DNA of 64,000 nt from Halobellus clavatus. GTDB lineage: Archaea > Halobacteriota > Halobacteria > Halobacteriales > Haloferacaceae. The stretch's first letter is position 1. Every line of letters starts with the position of its first letter. Location of the stretch: the NCBI RefSeq assembly GCF_900107195.1, contig NZ_FNPB01000010.1, positions 62,001-126,000 on the forward strand, in the 5' to 3' direction. Below are positions 31,849 to 39,628 of the stretch, one piece after another. A program made the position numbers and the translations under genes. Below the pieces are notes generated by a model. It was not told where the DNA came from and did not search any database. It worked only from the letters and a program-made list of their open reading frames with translations.

Positions 31849-33528
31849 TCAGTCGGCCGCCGTCGACGCCGGCCCGCCGACGTCTGAGACGACGCCCTCC
31901 TCGGACCACCCGCGAACGTCGTAGTAGGCGTCGAGTGCGGCCTCGAACCCGTCGACGTCGTAGGGGAGGCGGTCGTCGCTGCGGTCGAAGCCGCGCTGAT
32001 TGTTGAAGTGTCGTTCGAGTTCGACGACGCGCCCACCGACCGCCAGGAGGTCGTCGTAGTCGGCGCCGAACAGCCCCTCGAAGCGCTCGGGCGTCATAAA
32101 GTCGCGCGAGAACCGACAGACGACGCCGCAGTCTTCGAGCGCGCGCGTGTTTTCGAGTTCGACGAGCTTTGCGGCCTTCTCGTCGCTGAGGCCATCGGGG
32201 TCGAACGCGTGCTCTCGGGGCACGAGCGGGTACTCGTAGGCGTAGAAGGTGGCGTACATGTGATCCGCGCCGCGGTTGGCCGTCGCGAAGGAGAGGCCCT
32301 GCCCGTTGAGCGCGCGGCCGTCGTGGGCCGGGAACTCCATTCCTTTGACCGTCCAGTTCTCGACGCCCAGTTCCTCGTGGGCGCGGTCGATTCCCTCCGC
32401 GAGCGTGTCACCGACGCCCTCGCGGTGTGCGATCTGCTCGACGGTCTCTCTGACGAGGGCCGCGTCGCCGAAACGGTCCTCGCTCGCGAGGTACCCGGCG
32501 ACGACGTCGCCGGCGGAGATCACGTCCAGTCCGAGGCGATCGCACAGTTCGTTCGCGCGCATCACGTCGACGATGTCGTCGACGCCACAGTTGCTGCCGA
32601 ACGACATCACGGTCTCGAACTCGGGGCCCTCCGTCTCGACCCCGGTCGCCTCGTCGCGCGTCGGCAGTTTGCACGCGAACGCGCACTGCGAGCAGGTGCC
32701 CTTCTTGTACTTCTTTTCCTCGACGCGGTCGCCGTTGATGCCCTCGGCTCCCTCGAACGACTGGTCGGCGAAGTAGTACGCCGGGAGCGCGTCGGACTCG
32801 TTCGCGAGATCCGTCACCGAGGTCGTGCCCTGCCGCTTCATGATGTGGTCGTCGGTGGCGGCCTCCTGGTGGACCTCCATCTGCATCGGTGGGATCTCGA
32901 CGGGCGGTTCGGCCTCGCCATCGAACGTCAGCAGTTTGATGTTCTTCGCACCGAGGACGGCTCCCAGTCCACCGCGACCGAAGGCCCGCGACTCCGTCGT
33001 CATAATCGATGCGAAGCGGACCTCGTTCTCGCCGGCCGGCCCGATGCACGCGGTGTGTTCGGGGTCGAGGTCGTGTTCCGCCGCCGCGTATTCGACCGTC
33101 TCGGGGACCTCTGCGCCGGCCAGTTCCGGCACGGGCTCGAAGGTGACCCCGTCTTCGCGAACGTGGACCGCGAGGAGTTCGTCGGCTTTGCCGGTGATCT
33201 CGACGGCGGCGTTGCCGGCGCCGACGAAGTTCCGCGAGAGGAAGCCGCCGGCGTTCGACGAAAAGAGCCCGTCCGTCAGCGGCGAGATGCCCGTGCAGTT
33301 CATCCGCCCGGTGAACGACATCCGCGAAGCCTGCATCGGGCCGGTGGTGAAGTACAGTTTGTTCTCCGCACCGAGCGGGTCGGCGTCGAAGGGGATTCGA
33401 TCGTGTGCGAGCGCCGTCGCGACTCCCCGTCCGCCGATGAAGTCGACGAGGATGTCGTCGATCGATTCGGTGGTGGTGTCGCGCGCACCCACGTCGATCG
33501 ATCGGAGCGGTCCCTGGGTGTGCAGCAT
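31849..33528 (-). CDS. Tungsten-dependent aldehyde:ferredoxin oxidoreductase family protein
   Basis: 559 residues from ATG 33528, 24-32 bases after TATA-like catttattac. The AOR architecture is clear: an N-terminal domain with DFIGGRGVATAL and TGPMQASRMSFTGRMN, and the pterin-binding RAFGRGGLGAVLGAKN. The [4Fe-4S] ligands are the CSQCAFACK cluster set, with a late cysteine in LEDCGVVCRFSRDFM. The family oxidises aldehydes to acids with ferredoxin, using a tungsten-bis-pterin centre. Length is slightly short of the classic 600. Substrate is unknown; neighbouring amine-catabolism genes suggest an amino-aldehyde (inference). Confidence 0.93.
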   Translation of the reverse strand: MLHTQGPLRSIDVGARDTTTESIDDILVDFIGGRGVATALAHDRIPFDADPLGAENKLYFTTGPMQASRMSFTGRMNCTGISPLTDGLFSSNAGGFLSRNFVGAGNAAVEITGKADELLAVHVREDGVTFEPVPELAGAEVPETVEYAAAEHDLDPEHTACIGPAGENEVRFASIMTTESRAFGRGGLGAVLGAKNIKLLTFDGEAEPPVEIPPMQMEVHQEAATDDHIMKRQGTTSVTDLANESDALPAYYFADQSFEGAEGINGDRVEEKKYKKGTCSQCAFACKLPTRDEATGVETEGPEFETVMSFGSNCGVDDIVDVMRANELCDRLGLDVISAGDVVAGYLASEDRFGDAALVRETVEQIAHREGVGDTLAEGIDRAHEELGVENWTVKGMEFPAHDGRALNGQGLSFATANRGADHMYATFYAYEYPLVPREHAFDPDGLSDEKAAKLVELENTRALEDCGVVCRFSRDFMTPERFEGLFGADYDDLLAVGGRVVELERHFNNQRGFDRSDDRLPYDVDGFEAALDAYYDVRGWSEEGVVSDVGGPASTAAD

Positions 33529-33560: not shown

Positions 33561-33583
33561 GTGGCACACCTGTGCCAGGCAGA

Positions 33584-34216
33584 TCAGACGACGCCAACGG
33601 CGCGGACCGGCGCACCGTCGCCACCGAGTGCCAGCGGATACGCCCGAAGCTCAAACCGATCCGCGGCCGCGCCGAGGTTCGTGAGGTTCTCCAGAACCAG
33701 ACAGTCGGCTTCCAGAAGCGCGTGATGAGCCGCGAACCCCTCGGGCTCGCCGTCCGCGGCCGACGGCGTCGGCGTCGGATCCGGATTCAGCGTGTCGGAG
33801 GCGACGGCCAGTCCCCGTTCGGCACACCGACGGGCCGCTTCCGGTGAGAGATACGGGTGATCCAGATAGCGATCCGTTCCCCAGTGCTCGTCCCACCCGG
33901 TCCAGAGGACGAGACAGTCCGCAGCTGTCTCGGGGACGCGCTCGGGGGGAATCGGATCGCGGGGGCCGAGATCGCGGCAGTCGACCCGGACGGCATCGAA
34001 CGCGAAGCGGTCCACCGGGTACGCCGAGAGCGTCTTCCCGTCCGGAATCACGTGTGCGGGTGCGTCGACGTGCGTCCCCGTGTGACTCCCCAGTTCGAGC
34101 GCCTCGACCCGGTAGCCGTCGGCGTCGTGTGACGCGTGGTCCTGTACTTCCACCGTGGGGTCGTCGGGGTACGTCTGCATTCCCGTCTCGATCGAGTGCG
34201 TCAGATCGACGGACAT
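33584..34216 (-). CDS. Putative cyclase / kynurenine formamidase-family hydrolase
   Basis: 210 residues from ATG 34216 (MSVDLTHSIETGMQTYPDDP). The family metal motif HxGTHxDxPxH is present as SHTGTHVDAPAHV at about residues 44-56, followed by a D(F/C)R strand and a later AAHHALLEAD region. The metal-dependent family covers arylformamidases, isatin hydrolases and other amide or lactone hydrolases, so the substrate is open. An ATG at 34252 is an alternative, but a TATA-like element at about 34269-34277 makes 34216 with a short leader more likely. Divergent from the symporter. Confidence 0.88.
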   Translation of the reverse strand: MSVDLTHSIETGMQTYPDDPTVEVQDHASHDADGYRVEALELGSHTGTHVDAPAHVIPDGKTLSAYPVDRFAFDAVRVDCRDLGPRDPIPPERVPETAADCLVLWTGWDEHWGTDRYLDHPYLSPEAARRCAERGLAVASDTLNPDPTPTPSAADGEPEGFAAHHALLEADCLVLENLTNLGAAADRFELRAYPLALGGDGAPVRAVGVV

Positions 34217-34306: not shown

Positions 34307-34322
34307 TGGTAATCCATTACCA
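34307..34322. promoter_or_regulatory. Palindrome in the cyclase-symporter divergent promoter
   Basis: TGGTAAT-CC-ATTACCA is a perfect inverted repeat with 7-base arms, set between the divergent hydrolase and symporter genes, 43 bases before the symporter start. It is a good operator candidate for co-regulation of the two genes. The binder is unknown. Confidence 0.55.
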
Positions 34323-34364: not shown

Positions 34365-35873
34365 GTGGTAACACAACTCACCGGTGCCGGCCTACTCGCG
34401 TTCTGGGGACTGGCGATGATCGCGCTGAGTTACTACATCTACCGGCGCCAATCGGTGACGGACACCGAGGAGTTCATCACAGCCGGCGGCCGGGCCCAGG
34501 TCGGATTGACGACCGCGTCATTCGCCGTGACGTGGATGTGGGCGGGCGACATCCTCGGTGTCCCGCAGTACGTCGGCATCACCGGCGTCGCGGGGCTGTG
34601 GATGTACGCCGCACCGGCGGTGCTCTCCTCGTTCGTGGTCATCCCCTTCGCACTCCGAATGCGGAAGCTGTTCCCGCAGGGGTTGACCTACAGCGAGTAC
34701 TTCATCGAACGGTTCGGTGACTGGGCGCACCTCGCCGTCATCCTCGTCATCCTGTACACAATGGTCCTCGGCGGCGTGATCCAGCTGTTCGTCGGGGGCA
34801 CCGTCATCGGCGGACTGACCGGGATCGACCCCAACGTCGTGATGGCGGTCCTGATGGGCGTCATCGGGATCTACATCCTCCTCGGTGGGCTCTGGGGATC
34901 GATGACGACGGACTTCGTGCAGTTCGTCAGTGCACTCGCGCTGACGCTGATCTTCGTCCCGCTCCTCCTCGTGGAGGCCGGCGGGCCGGGGCAGGTGTAC
35001 GAACAGATGGCCGCGAATCTCGGATCGCAGGCCTCGTCGTTCCTCTCGATGGCGAATCTGAACGCGATCGAGGGGCTGTTCCTGCCGTACGCGCTCGGCC
35101 TCGGCGTGTGGGGCGTCGTCTCGCTAGCGACGTGGCAGCGGGTGTTCGCGGTCCGGCGCGATAAGACCTCGCGGTTCCTGACCATCGGCGGCATCGGCGT
35201 GTTCACGACGATCGCGATGTACTCCGTCATCGGGTTCGTCGGGCTCGCGGCGTTCACTGACGTCGCGCCCGGAAACCTCTCGATCGAGGCGCTCGGGCTG
35301 ATGCCCGACTGGGCAGCGATTCTGTTCCTGCTGGTGGCGCTCATGGTATTGGGCTCCTCGGTCGACTCGTATCTCACCGCCATCGCGAGTCTCACCTCGC
35401 GCGACATCTACTACCGGCACATCAACAAGGGCGCTTCCGACGATCAGCAGCTTCGTGTCGCCCGCGCGGCGTCGATCGGCTTCGCGGTCGTCATCTTCGC
35501 CGCGACGGTGCTGGCGCTCGGCTCGATCAGCTTCGTCCAACTCCTGCTCATCGGCGGGATCGGCGCGTCGGCGCTGGTCGGCCCGTTCGCGCTCTCGCTG
35601 TTCTGGACGAAGGCGTCGCAGACCGGCTTCGTCACTGGCGTCGTGGTCTCCCAACTGGTCACGGCGTTCCTGCTCGCAGCCAGTTACGACGTCGTCGTGA
35701 CCAGCCCGACGCTGAAGCTCTGGGAGATTATGGCCGTCGGGCACCTCGTCTCGACGGGGCTGACGGCGGTTGTCAGCGCGGTCTCCCCGGACGACTTCCG
35801 CTTCGAGTCCATCGCCCAAGAGGGCTCGGCAGTCGCGGCCGACGGCGGCGTCGAAGGGGGTGATGCCGAATGA
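34365..35873 (+). CDS. Sodium:solute symporter (SSS) family transporter
   Basis: 502 residues, about 13 helices, starting at GTG 34365 behind a strong Shine-Dalgarno sequence. The SSS pattern is visible in YRRQSVTDTEEFITAGGR near the N-terminus, the GDILGVPQYVGITG helix 1 region, WQRVFAVRRDKTSR and LGSSVDSYLTAIASLTSRDIY, a typical SSS helix 8-loop with Ser residues of the Na2 site. The ligand could be an amino acid, amine, urea or carboxylate. The stop overlaps the start of a 76-residue membrane protein, so the two probably work together. Confidence 0.92.
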   Translation: MVTQLTGAGLLAFWGLAMIALSYYIYRRQSVTDTEEFITAGGRAQVGLTTASFAVTWMWAGDILGVPQYVGITGVAGLWMYAAPAVLSSFVVIPFALRMRKLFPQGLTYSEYFIERFGDWAHLAVILVILYTMVLGGVIQLFVGGTVIGGLTGIDPNVVMAVLMGVIGIYILLGGLWGSMTTDFVQFVSALALTLIFVPLLLVEAGGPGQVYEQMAANLGSQASSFLSMANLNAIEGLFLPYALGLGVWGVVSLATWQRVFAVRRDKTSRFLTIGGIGVFTTIAMYSVIGFVGLAAFTDVAPGNLSIEALGLMPDWAAILFLLVALMVLGSSVDSYLTAIASLTSRDIYYRHINKGASDDQQLRVARAASIGFAVVIFAATVLALGSISFVQLLLIGGIGASALVGPFALSLFWTKASQTGFVTGVVVSQLVTAFLLAASYDVVVTSPTLKLWEIMAVGHLVSTGLTAVVSAVSPDDFRFESIAQEGSAVAADGGVEGGDAE

Positions 35874-36100
35874 TGAGTCAAGGCCTCTTCACGGGAATGA
35901 TCGTCCTGTTCTGGGTTGCTGAGGCGCTGTTCGGTGCGCTGGTCGTCTACTGGTTCCTCACGCAAGGGTTCGACAGTGACGCGGACACCGCCGCGGGTGG
36001 ACCGGTCGAACTCGAAGACAAATCCGAGACGTTGCGTTCGCTGGGGATGTGGGCCGCGTTCTTCGGCGCGATCATTCTCGGGATCGTCGTCGGCGCGTAG
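35870..36100 (+). CDS. Two-helix small subunit coupled to the symporter
   Basis: 76 residues; ATG 35870 overlaps the symporter stop (ATGATG). Two helices, FTGMIVLFWVAEALFGALVVYW and LGMWAAFFGAIILGIVVGA, flank a charged loop (DSDADTAAGGPVELEDKSET). Small membrane partners beside SSS transporters occur in bacteria too (for example DUF485 or DUF3311 with their transporters), so a stabilising or gating subunit is the simplest inference. Its stop is adjacent to the convergent regulator gene with no gap. Confidence 0.75.
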   Translation: MMSQGLFTGMIVLFWVAEALFGALVVYWFLTQGFDSDADTAAGGPVELEDKSETLRSLGMWAAFFGAIILGIVVGA

Positions 36101-37063
36101 TCAGAGTCTCTCGCGGACCGCGGGCGCGGGCTCGAACGCGGCCCGCGGTTCGATACCGTCGAGCGATTTCCACCCGGAGAGGAGTCCGTGTTCGTGCAGC
36201 AGCGCGAACGCGGTCTCACCCGCGCCGCCGTAGGTGAGAGAGGCGAACTCCCACCCCTGCGTCCCCGTGGGCACCTCGCCGGGCTCGCGCGGCCGACGGA
36301 ACTTCACCACCCCCCCGAGCCGATCGCGGGTCGCCGTCGAGAGGTCCTGCGTCTCGTCGAATCGGGTGAGGGGAAACTCCCGGCTGTCGACGATCAGGAC
36401 GCCCTCGCTGCCGTGTAGGATCGCATCCACGTCCGTCCGGTCTGCCTCGACGAGCAGGTGGACCACGTCCATCGTGGATCCCTCGCCGCTGATGGCGTCG
36501 ATGTAACGGGTGATCTCCCCGTCGTACTCGACGAGTCCGGCGGCGACGAGGCGTGTGTTGATTCCCCGCGAGAGGAGCACACCATCGAGAGTGATACTGG
36601 AGGGGACCGCGAGTTCGACCCCCGAGTCTCCGTCGGTCACCGAGACGGGGATCGGACCGACGGGCGATTCGTGGAGTGCGGTCAACAGGTCGAACGCCTC
36701 GTCAACGCGGTCTGTGGGGACCTGGGCGGCCCCGGCGACGACCTCGCCACCGTCTTCGGCAGGGTCGTAGGTCACCTCGCTGGTCAGAGTGGCGATCCGT
36801 TCGCGGATCCGTTCGAGTCGGCCGCTCACGTCGCCGCGTTCGAGTTCCTCTCGGCCGTCCGACGTCAACCGTCGACCCTTGCCGGCGACCTTCTCGGTCA
36901 GGTTCTCCTCGTCCAACTCCGAGAGCATCAGTCGGATCGTCCGGTCCTTGATCGAGTACCCGCGCTGCTGCATCATATCGACGAGCCGAATGCTCCCGAT
37001 CGGTTCGTTCTCGTCGATGAGACGAAGCAAGTCGTACCGGCGTCTCTTCCCCCCGGTGGCCAT
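36101..37063 (-). CDS. NrpR-family transcriptional regulator
   Basis: 320 residues. An N-terminal winged-helix domain (about 1-75; RYDLLRLIDENEPIGSIRLV and IKDRTIRLMLSELDEENLT) is of the ribonuclease R/NrpR wHTH type. One NrpR regulatory domain (DUF128) follows, with GAAQVPTDRVDEAFDLLTAL, SSITLDGVLLSRGINTRLVA and DVDAILHGSEGVLIVDSREF. In methanogens NrpR senses 2-oxoglutarate and represses nitrogen genes through GGAA-N6-TTCC operators. ATG 37063 follows a TATA box at 37086-37094 and is probably leaderless. The operator-like site at 37258-37271 lies before the divergent aminotransferase. Confidence 0.9.
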   Translation of the reverse strand: MATGGKRRRYDLLRLIDENEPIGSIRLVDMMQQRGYSIKDRTIRLMLSELDEENLTEKVAGKGRRLTSDGREELERGDVSGRLERIRERIATLTSEVTYDPAEDGGEVVAGAAQVPTDRVDEAFDLLTALHESPVGPIPVSVTDGDSGVELAVPSSITLDGVLLSRGINTRLVAAGLVEYDGEITRYIDAISGEGSTMDVVHLLVEADRTDVDAILHGSEGVLIVDSREFPLTRFDETQDLSTATRDRLGGVVKFRRPREPGEVPTGTQGWEFASLTYGGAGETAFALLHEHGLLSGWKSLDGIEPRAAFEPAPAVRERL

Positions 37064-37094: not shown

Positions 37095-37248
37095 CCTCCC
37101 TAACCCCGTGTGAAGCGGAAATTGATTACCGTGTGAAATCGCCGTGTATTGTATCACTGACTGTCATTTTCGGCCGGAGAATGCCCAAATCTGTACGTTC
37201 AGGGGACGAAAGCCACCTCAAGATTTTTGAACACATCGGCACAAGTGC

Positions 37249-37271
37249 GTATAAGGTGGAATAGGAGTTCC
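37249..37271 (+). promoter_or_regulatory. TATA box with an overlapping NrpR operator (GGAA-N6-TTCC)
   Basis: The TATA-like gtataagg (37249-37256) is 20-27 bases before ATG 37276. Directly after it is GGAA (37258-37261), six bases (taggag) and TTCC (37268-37271). This is an exact match to the palindromic operator bound by NrpR in Methanococcus. Binding there would block initiation, so the aminotransferase-ureohydrolase operon is predicted to be repressed when nitrogen is ample. Confidence 0.65.
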
Positions 37272-37275
37272 ATAT

Positions 37276-38610
37276 ATGTCACACCAAACGGATCCTCCAA
37301 CGTCGAACGAGCGGGTCGAAGCGCAGTACGAAGAGTATCTGATGCCCATCTGGAAAAATCTGAATGTCCCGATCAAGCGGGCGTCGGGGTGCACCGTCGA
37401 GGACTTCGAGGGCAACGAGTATCTCGACGTGTTCTCCGGCATCTCGGTGACGAACGCGGGCCACAACAACGAGGCGGTCGTCGACGCCGCGAAGGAGCAA
37501 CTCGACGAGTTCGTTCACGGTTGTACGTACGTCCACCCGAATCAACCGGCGGCCGAACTCGGGGAGAAACTCGCCGAGGTGACGCCCGGCGATCTCCAGA
37601 AGACGTTCTTCTGTAACTCGGGGACGGAGGCCGTCGAGGGAGCGATCAAACTCGCTCGGAAGTACACCGGGTCCAAGGAGGTCCTGGCGCTCGAGATGTC
37701 GTTCCACGGGCGGACACTGGGATCGCTGGCGCTGACGGGGAACAAATCCTACAAGTCCGAGATGGCCCCGACGATCAACGACGTGTCCCACGTCGCGCCG
37801 CCGTACGCGTACCGGTGTCAGATGTGTGACGGCGGTCCCTGTTCGTGCGCCTGCGCCGAGGACGTCGAGCACGTCATCGACACCCACACCGCCGACGACC
37901 TGGCCGCGGTCGTCGTCGAACCCGTGATGGGCGAAGGGGGGATCATCGTCCCGCCGGAAGGCTGGCTCTCGCGGGTGAAAGAGATCGCTCACGACCACGG
38001 TGCGCTCCTCATCGTCGACGAGGTGCAGGCCGGCTACGGCCGCACCGGGGAACTGTGGGCGTCAGATCACTTCGACGTCGTGCCCGACATCATGCCGCAG
38101 GCGAAGGGCATTGCCAACGGGCTTCCGCTGGGGGCGTTCACCGCGAGCGCGGAGGTCGCAGACGCCTTCGAGGCCGGCGATCACCTCTCGACGTTCGGGG
38201 GCAACCCCGTGGCGTGTGCCGCCGCGCTGGCGACCATCGAAGAGCTAGAGAACGGCATCATCGACAACGCCCGAGAGCAGGGAGCGTGGCTGCACGAGCA
38301 GTTGGCTGAGTTGGAACGCGAGTACGACGTCGTCGGCGATGCACGCGGACTGGGCCTGATGCAAGGCATCGAACTCGTCGATCCGCAGGAGACCGGCCGG
38401 ATGGACGTCGCGCCCGCGCCCGATCCGAAGCTCGCGAAGGCGGTCGGCAAGCAGCTTCGCGAAGACGGGATCGTGATCGGCGTCGGCGGATTCCACAAGA
38501 ACGTGATGCGGTTCCAGCCGCCGCTGACCATTTCTCGGGACCAGCTCGAACGCGCCGTCGAGGCCCTCGGAGCAGCGATCGAAGCCCATCGAGAGGATTC
38601 GGGTGCCTGA
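37276..38610 (+). CDS. Class III (fold-type I) aminotransferase, omega-amino-acid/polyamine type
   Basis: 444 residues. Motifs are LDVFSGISVTNAGHNN, FCNSGTEAVEGAIKLARKYTG, the Asp in LLIVDEVQAGYGRTGELWAS, the PLP lysine segment DIMPQAKGIANGLPLGAF and the C-terminal FHKNVMRFQPPLTIS. The family handles ornithine, 4-aminobutyrate, putrescine or beta-alanine. An unusual feature is a cysteine cluster at residues 181, 184, 189, 191 and 193 (YRCQMCDGGPCSCAC), likely a zinc or iron-sulfur knuckle. The stop lies directly before a ureohydrolase gene, so agmatine/putrescine or guanidino-acid catabolism is likely (inference). Confidence 0.9.
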   Translation: MSHQTDPPTSNERVEAQYEEYLMPIWKNLNVPIKRASGCTVEDFEGNEYLDVFSGISVTNAGHNNEAVVDAAKEQLDEFVHGCTYVHPNQPAAELGEKLAEVTPGDLQKTFFCNSGTEAVEGAIKLARKYTGSKEVLALEMSFHGRTLGSLALTGNKSYKSEMAPTINDVSHVAPPYAYRCQMCDGGPCSCACAEDVEHVIDTHTADDLAAVVVEPVMGEGGIIVPPEGWLSRVKEIAHDHGALLIVDEVQAGYGRTGELWASDHFDVVPDIMPQAKGIANGLPLGAFTASAEVADAFEAGDHLSTFGGNPVACAAALATIEELENGIIDNAREQGAWLHEQLAELEREYDVVGDARGLGLMQGIELVDPQETGRMDVAPAPDPKLAKAVGKQLREDGIVIGVGGFHKNVMRFQPPLTISRDQLERAVEALGAAIEAHREDSGA

Positions 38611-38611
38611 G

Positions 38612-39628
38612 ATGAACCCGGAACAGCACGAGAGTCGCGTAACGGCGTTCCGGGAGTCCACTCCGGGGAGCGGCGTCGAGCTCCCCTACGCGGGGTTCGA
38701 CACGTTCCTGAAGCGGGAGATCGCCGACGTCGAGGATGTCTCCGGAGCCGACGCTGCCGTCCTCGGCGTCCCCTACGACGGCGCGGTGAGCAACCGCCCG
38801 GGAACGCGCTACGGGCCACGCGCCGTCCGCCGAGCCAGCGGCTGGCCGGCGTATCTCTCGGGGTACAAAGGCGGCCTGACCAACATCCGCACGGGTCGAC
38901 AGGTCGACTTCAGTGCCCTCGATCTGGTTGACTGCGGCGACGTGCCCGTCTTCCCGATGGATCGCGAGACGACGGCCGAGTCGATCACCGCCCACGTCGC
39001 GACCGTCGCCGAACAGGGCGTGATGCCGGTGGTCGTTGGCGGCGATCACTACTGTACGTTCCCCGCGTTCGAGGGGTTCGCCGCGGGCAGTAGCCACGAC
39101 ACCGTCGGCCTCGTCCAGATCGACGCCCACACCGACACGACGTCCGAGAGCGCGCTCTTCGGGGAGCACTTCCACGGCTCCTCGACGCACCACATCGCGG
39201 AGTCCCCGTACACCGACTACGAGCACGTCGCACAGGTCGGCATCCGCGGCTACGAGTCGCCCGGGTTCTTCGAGTTCGCCGAGGAGACCGGCCTGTCGGT
39301 GTTCACGATGCGCGACGTTGAACAGCGCGGCATCACCGACGTCGTGGAGGCGGCGATCGCGGCGGCCGCGGCCGACACCGACGCCGTCTACGTGACGTTC
39401 GATATCGACTCGGTCGATCCCGCAGTCGCGCCGGGGACGGGAACGCCCGAACCCGGCGGGCTCTCGGCGTCGCAGGCGCTGTCCGTGATGGAGCGACTCG
39501 GCACCCACGACGCCGTCGCGGCCGCCGATCTGATGGAGGTCGCGCCGCCCCAGGATCCGACCGACGGCACCGCGCGACTGGGGGCGTACCTGCTGACGAC
39601 GCTGCTCGAACAGCGGTTCGCCCACTGA
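38612..39628 (+). CDS. Agmatinase/guanidino-acid ureohydrolase family protein
   Basis: 338 residues. The binuclear manganese (or nickel) site of ureohydrolases is intact: His in VVGGDHYCTF, Asp/His/Asp in VQIDAHTDTTSES and the two Asp in VTFDIDSVDPAVAPGTGTPE. Further motifs are RPGTRYGPRAVRRAS and GLSASQALSVM. It releases urea from agmatine, guanidinobutyrate or a related guanidino compound; the specificity cannot be read. I use ATG 38612. A GTG at 38603 overlapping the previous stop is possible and has a better-spaced Shine-Dalgarno-like gagga. Co-transcribed with the aminotransferase. Confidence 0.9.
   Translation: MNPEQHESRVTAFRESTPGSGVELPYAGFDTFLKREIADVEDVSGADAAVLGVPYDGAVSNRPGTRYGPRAVRRASGWPAYLSGYKGGLTNIRTGRQVDFSALDLVDCGDVPVFPMDRETTAESITAHVATVAEQGVMPVVVGGDHYCTFPAFEGFAAGSSHDTVGLVQIDAHTDTTSESALFGEHFHGSSTHHIAESPYTDYEHVAQVGIRGYESPGFFEFAEETGLSVFTMRDVEQRGITDVVEAAIAAAAADTDAVYVTFDIDSVDPAVAPGTGTPEPGGLSASQALSVMERLGTHDAVAAADLMEVAPPQDPTDGTARLGAYLLTTLLEQRFAH

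Follow-up and report, generated by a model that had tools for sequence, protein, structure and literature searches.

Does the palindrome GGAATAGGAGTTCC, which lies at positions 37258-37271 of a haloarchaeal window (the whole stretch of DNA that was analyzed, 64 kb in length) and adjoins a gene for an NrpR-family protein, serve as an operator of that regulator and, if so, for which genes? The operator of NrpR in Methanococcus maripaludis is GGAA-N6-TTCC (PMC2723118), and that of NrpRI in Methanosarcina mazei is GGTA-N6-TACC (PMC3177094). In non-methanogenic haloarchaea, a master NrpR-type regulator is reported not to be conserved (PMC6801745), and the set of papers that we searched contained no description of a haloarchaeal NrpR-like regulator. 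To judge from the sequence comparisons reported here, the palindrome is probably (with a probability of roughly four in five) the operator of the adjacent regulator, which would act as a local, autoregulated repressor of the uptake and catabolism of guanidino or polyamine-type compounds. The site itself, its conservation, the specificity of its spacing, its tie to the regulator gene, its local distribution, and the domain and fold identity of the regulator were all computed directly.

The gene cluster around the palindrome is organized as follows:

31849..33528, minus strand: aldehyde:ferredoxin oxidoreductase-family enzyme (PF01314, PF02730); probable start at 33528, from the reading frame
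33584..34216, minus strand: cyclase-family (arylformamidase-like) enzyme (PF04199); probable start at 34216, from the reading frame
34365..35873, plus strand: sodium:solute symporter (PF00474)
35873..36100, plus strand: small protein encoded 3' of the symporter gene, kept in syntenic loci
36101..37063, minus strand: NrpR-family regulator, 320 aa (Pfam HTH_12 and NRD1_2)
37276..38610, plus strand: class III aminotransferase, GABA/omega-aminotransferase-like, divergent from the regulator
38603..39628, plus strand: ureohydrolase of the arginase family, in the divergent operon with the aminotransferase

The first-pass annotation of this DNA had described an exact GGAA-N6-TTCC beside an NrpR-family gene and a divergent aminotransferase-ureohydrolase operon. 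Both descriptions hold: the sequence is present, the neighboring gene encodes the HTH_12 and NRD1_2 domains, and the two enzymes are annotated as an aminotransferase of class III and an arginase family member. The solved structures nearest to the ureohydrolase are annotated as agmatinase 2, followed by guanidinopropionase and guanidinobutyrase; guanidine, agmatine or guanidino acids could be its substrate. The small protein encoded at 35873..36100 (plus strand) gave no match in a Pfam search.

The regulator is a member of the NrpR family

The regulator consists of a winged-helix HTH_12 domain followed by an NRD domain, both with Pfam matches above the cut-off. Its AlphaFold model (pLDDT 88) has the NRD fold, with a fold E-value of 6e-14 and a TM-score, normalised to the target, of 0.80 against the NRD of MJ0159 (PDB 3nek); the sequence match to the same protein has an E-value of 2.5e-8, and the identity is 19%. 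Residues R41, R44, G63, R64 and T67 are invariant in 30 haloarchaeal homologs, and the same residues are found in NrpRI-type proteins of other classes, taken from genomes of the phylum outside the haloarchaea. The haloarchaeal regulator and the NrpRI-type proteins share the recognition-helix arginines R41 and R44, which are located in helix 40-52 of the model; G63-R64 are in the wing. Within the NRD, the haloarchaeal family has SS(I/V/L)T where the methanogen NrpRI proteins have the CSIT motif, which is a hint, and only a hint, that the effector domain might differ.

Like NrpRI of M. mazei, the regulator combines the HTH with a single NRD unit (PMC3177094). In the genome from which the window derives, it is the only PF01995 protein, so that, unlike in M. 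mazei, there is no NrpRII-like partner. PF01995 is represented in 24 of 292 haloarchaeal genomes, and the regulator is thus absent from most haloarchaea.

The palindrome is a conserved, probable operator with a fixed spacer

We searched the 292 haloarchaeal genomes for regulator homologs and retrieved loci of 18-20 kb. In the window, four sites, denoted O1 to O4, and one promoter element are relevant:

33562..33577, no strand: O4, TGGCACACCTGTGCCA, with the core GGCA-N6-TGCC at 33563-33576, upstream of the probable ATG of the oxidoreductase gene (33528, minus strand)
34307..34322, no strand: O3, TGGTAATCCATTACCA, with the core at 34308-34321, 5' of the Na+/solute symporter gene in the divergent cyclase/symporter intergenic region
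37117..37130, no strand: O2, GGAAATTGATTACC, with one mismatch to GGAA-N6-TTCC, 54 bp upstream of the regulator start codon
about 37217..37230, plus strand: BRE/TATA-like element CTCAAGATTTTTGA of the aminotransferase promoter, assigned by conservation
37257..37272, no strand: O1, TGGAATAGGAGTTCCA, the longer form of the core palindrome, directly 5' of the aminotransferase ATG

O1 is an exact GGAA-N6-TTCC and O3 an exact M. mazei-type GGTA-N6-TACC; GGCA, GGAA and GGTA half-sites are all present in this one cluster. Among the relatives, O1 is kept as GG[A/C]A-N6-T[T/G]CC, O2 is kept in L050, L051, L052, L054, L187 and L189, O3 has counterparts in L047, L050-L054, L187 and L189, and O4 has counterparts in L050 (at 5092) and L051 (at 13537). 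O2 lies 141 bp from O1 in the window and 142-146 bp from it in the other loci; this distance of 141-146 bp is common to seven loci, the window included, from at least two genera, and the intervening sequence varies; looping or a fixed-geometry arrangement is possible.

The evidence that the palindrome is real comes primarily from its spacing. When spacers of k=0 to 15 were scanned with the strict pattern TGGHA-N6-TDCCA and its variants, k=6 yielded 50 sites, present in all 25 regulator loci, compared with 0-7 sites at any other spacer and a mean of 0.57 (maximum 2) in a first-order Markov control; these counts come from related species, which are non-independent samples. The degenerate pattern was written with this first set of loci in view, and a fairer test is provided by 21 named loci that were held out of its definition and were found with an alignment query (a single-sequence query found no relatives): here, 33 sites occur at N6, in 19 of the 21 loci, versus 0-3 at other spacers. 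The scan thus recovers the inverted repeat GGNA-N6-TNCC that is characteristic of NrpR operators. In a motif-free count of gapped 4+4-mers, GGCA-N6-TGCC, together with its one-base-shifted form, ranked first and was found in 24 of 39 regulator-side promoters.

An intergenic chance match would be compatible with the 47 exact copies of GGAA-N6-TTCC in the genome, 12 of the 15 inspected being coding, and with the lack of signal in the window, where shuffles predict 17.0 one-mismatch matches and 18 were found. The conservation of the site, the specificity of its spacing and its clustering all contradict a chance match, rendering chance exceedingly improbable, and on the strength of the spacing scan and the held-out loci we rejected this explanation. 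Because of the genome-wide clustering and the conservation, and not because of the frequency in the window, the palindrome is, on the sequence evidence, a genuine operator. That it is bound by a different protein, encoded elsewhere in the genome, would leave the operator intact but is very unlikely, given that the sites track the regulator gene: they are found in 25 of the 25 loci with the regulator, versus 2 strict sites in the 29 loci that contain the ureohydrolase without it. From this co-occurrence, we infer that the regulator itself binds the operator.

The intergenic regions contain TGGAA-N6-TTCCA in L050 and L051, which are of the same genus as the window; most other genera have TGGCA-N6-TGCC(A/G), and mixed forms occur in other loci. 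Read from these sequences, the code in haloarchaea is GG[C>A>T]A-N6-T[G>T>A]CC, of which exact GGAA-N6-TTCC is one of the less common variants, present in just a few loci. The earlier suggestion that methanogens and haloarchaea share one operator code therefore survives for the GG-N10-CC frame with its N6 spacer but not for the third base, which is broader.

Promoter geometry points to repression

The element of the aminotransferase promoter is CTCAAGATTTTTGA in L050, L051, L053 and L187, and CTCAAAGCTTTT in L052, L054 and L189. No conservation was found among the relatives for the GTATAAG that abuts O1 on its 5' side. In archaeal promoters, the TATA box is located ~25-30 bp upstream of the transcription start; given this usual spacing, O1 would be positioned at or shortly past the predicted start, that is, where a bound protein would block initiation. 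The repressing position between the TATA box and the start codon that had been proposed for O1 is thus supported, but the likely TATA box is the element at ~37217-37230 and not the adjacent GTATAAG, which is not conserved. Across the relatives, most of the sites are located at or past the likely transcription start, and some overlap the ATG.

Unlike these start-site operators, O2 and O4 are located upstream of TATA-like stretches; O2 is the one-mismatch copy ahead of the regulator gene that had already been spotted. This placement would suit a regulator that activates part of its regulon, namely the oxidoreductase gene and its own gene, but the predominance among the relatives of sites at or past the start, some over the ATG, argues against activation, which we consider unlikely. 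Because binding at start sites would block initiation, we favor a local, autoregulated repressor.

Extent of the regulon and the question of nitrogen status

The strict pattern has only 10 sites in the 3.75-Mb genome, and three of these (O1, O3 and O4) are no more than 4 kb away from the regulator; for 3 of 10 sites in one 4-kb stretch, the binomial P is about 1.4e-7. O4 precedes the oxidoreductase gene, O3 the symporter gene and O1 the aminotransferase-ureohydrolase operon, and because these three sites fall inside the cluster, the predicted regulon looks local. The seven other strict sites are inside predicted genes or intergenic and, as judged from translations only, show no obvious connection to genes of nitrogen metabolism. 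The half-extended pattern GTGGHA-N6-TDCC revealed no convincing further regulon member across three genus genomes; given that this pattern occurs at the control level in the genome of the window (30 versus 29 sites), a small number of distant targets may have escaped detection or be false positives.

The first-pass annotation had linked the operon to nitrogen status, which would imply a true NrpR ortholog that senses 2-oxoglutarate and couples the operon to general nitrogen supply, as in methanogens. The domains, the fold and the HTH arginines all match the NrpR family, and both methanogen versions of the operator occur as exact copies in one cluster (PMC2723118, PMC3177094). However, in the genome of the window no GGHA-N6-TDCC site occurs in the loci of glnA, amtB and glnK (L084-L088), and the operators that a global NrpR regulon would have in front of genes such as glnA and glnK-amtB are accordingly missing; the regulator, which just 24 of the 292 haloarchaeal genomes encode, goes together with a single ureohydrolase pathway; non-methanogenic haloarchaea are reported not to conserve a master NrpR-type regulator (PMC6801745); and the CSIT motif of the NRD has become SS(I/V/L)T. 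General nitrogen control is therefore improbable, and the proposed link to nitrogen status is not borne out; a 2-oxoglutarate response confined to this cluster is possible.

Predicted mechanism and relationship to methanogen NrpR

Under the local repressor model, a dimer of the regulator would probably bind the palindrome with one winged helix on each GGNA half-site. It would occupy the transcription-start sites of the aminotransferase-ureohydrolase operon and of the symporter gene, where its presence would prevent initiation, as well as O4 ahead of the oxidoreductase gene and O2 ahead of its own gene. The pathway under its control would most likely import a nitrogen compound of the guanidino or polyamine type and process it through urea release and transamination, and a metabolite of this pathway, possibly 2-oxoglutarate, would act on the NRD domain to release the regulator from DNA.

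The resemblance to NrpR of M. maripaludis includes the HTH and NRD architecture, the GG-N10-CC palindrome with its N6 spacer, and the exact match at O1, but the M. maripaludis protein controls nif, glnA and glnK-amtB (PMC2723118), whereas the haloarchaeal regulon is predicted to be local and its commonest half-site is GGCA. A broader evolutionary scenario, to which we assign even odds, is that the haloarchaeal branch of NrpR kept the operator frame of the methanogens, with drift at the third base, and exchanged the global control of nitrogen for a local role as a catabolic switch, the effector now being a metabolite of a guanidino or polyamine pathway. The result would be a regulon whose operator is defined and whose targets are predicted, in a group, the haloarchaea, where the master NrpR was reported not to be conserved (PMC6801745), and a case for studying an archaeal repressor family in which the DNA frame is kept and the target pathway, and perhaps the ligand, has changed. 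It also hints at inducible use of guanidino or polyamine-type compounds by hypersaline archaea.

Variation among related loci

The regulator is accompanied by the ureohydrolase nearly everywhere, and often also by the aminotransferase, aldehyde dehydrogenases or a polyamine-type transporter. In other genera, the sites precede genes for a second type of symporter or for an ABC transporter of the polyamine type (potA model above the cut-off); in the loci with this transporter, the ATG of the binding-protein gene lies within the operator. Several loci (L056, L058-L064, L066, L196, L202-L204 and L214) contain pairs of facing regulator paralogs ~6 kb apart; the polyamine-type ABC transporter is encoded between the two paralogs, and an operator overlaps the start codon of its binding-protein gene.

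In L053 (9295-9591), the aminotransferase gene appears degraded, and the operator and the ureohydrolase gene are retained. A short ORF is located between the operator and the ureohydrolase gene in L057 (8600-8774) and also in L046, L048, L062 and L069, all of which lack the aminotransferase; in L057, its start resembles the N-terminus of the aminotransferase, suggestive of a decayed gene. In L049, an operator is found at the start codon of a gene (1767-2948) whose product is 59% identical to a histone-deacetylase-fold protein, a family that includes acetylpolyamine amidohydrolases.
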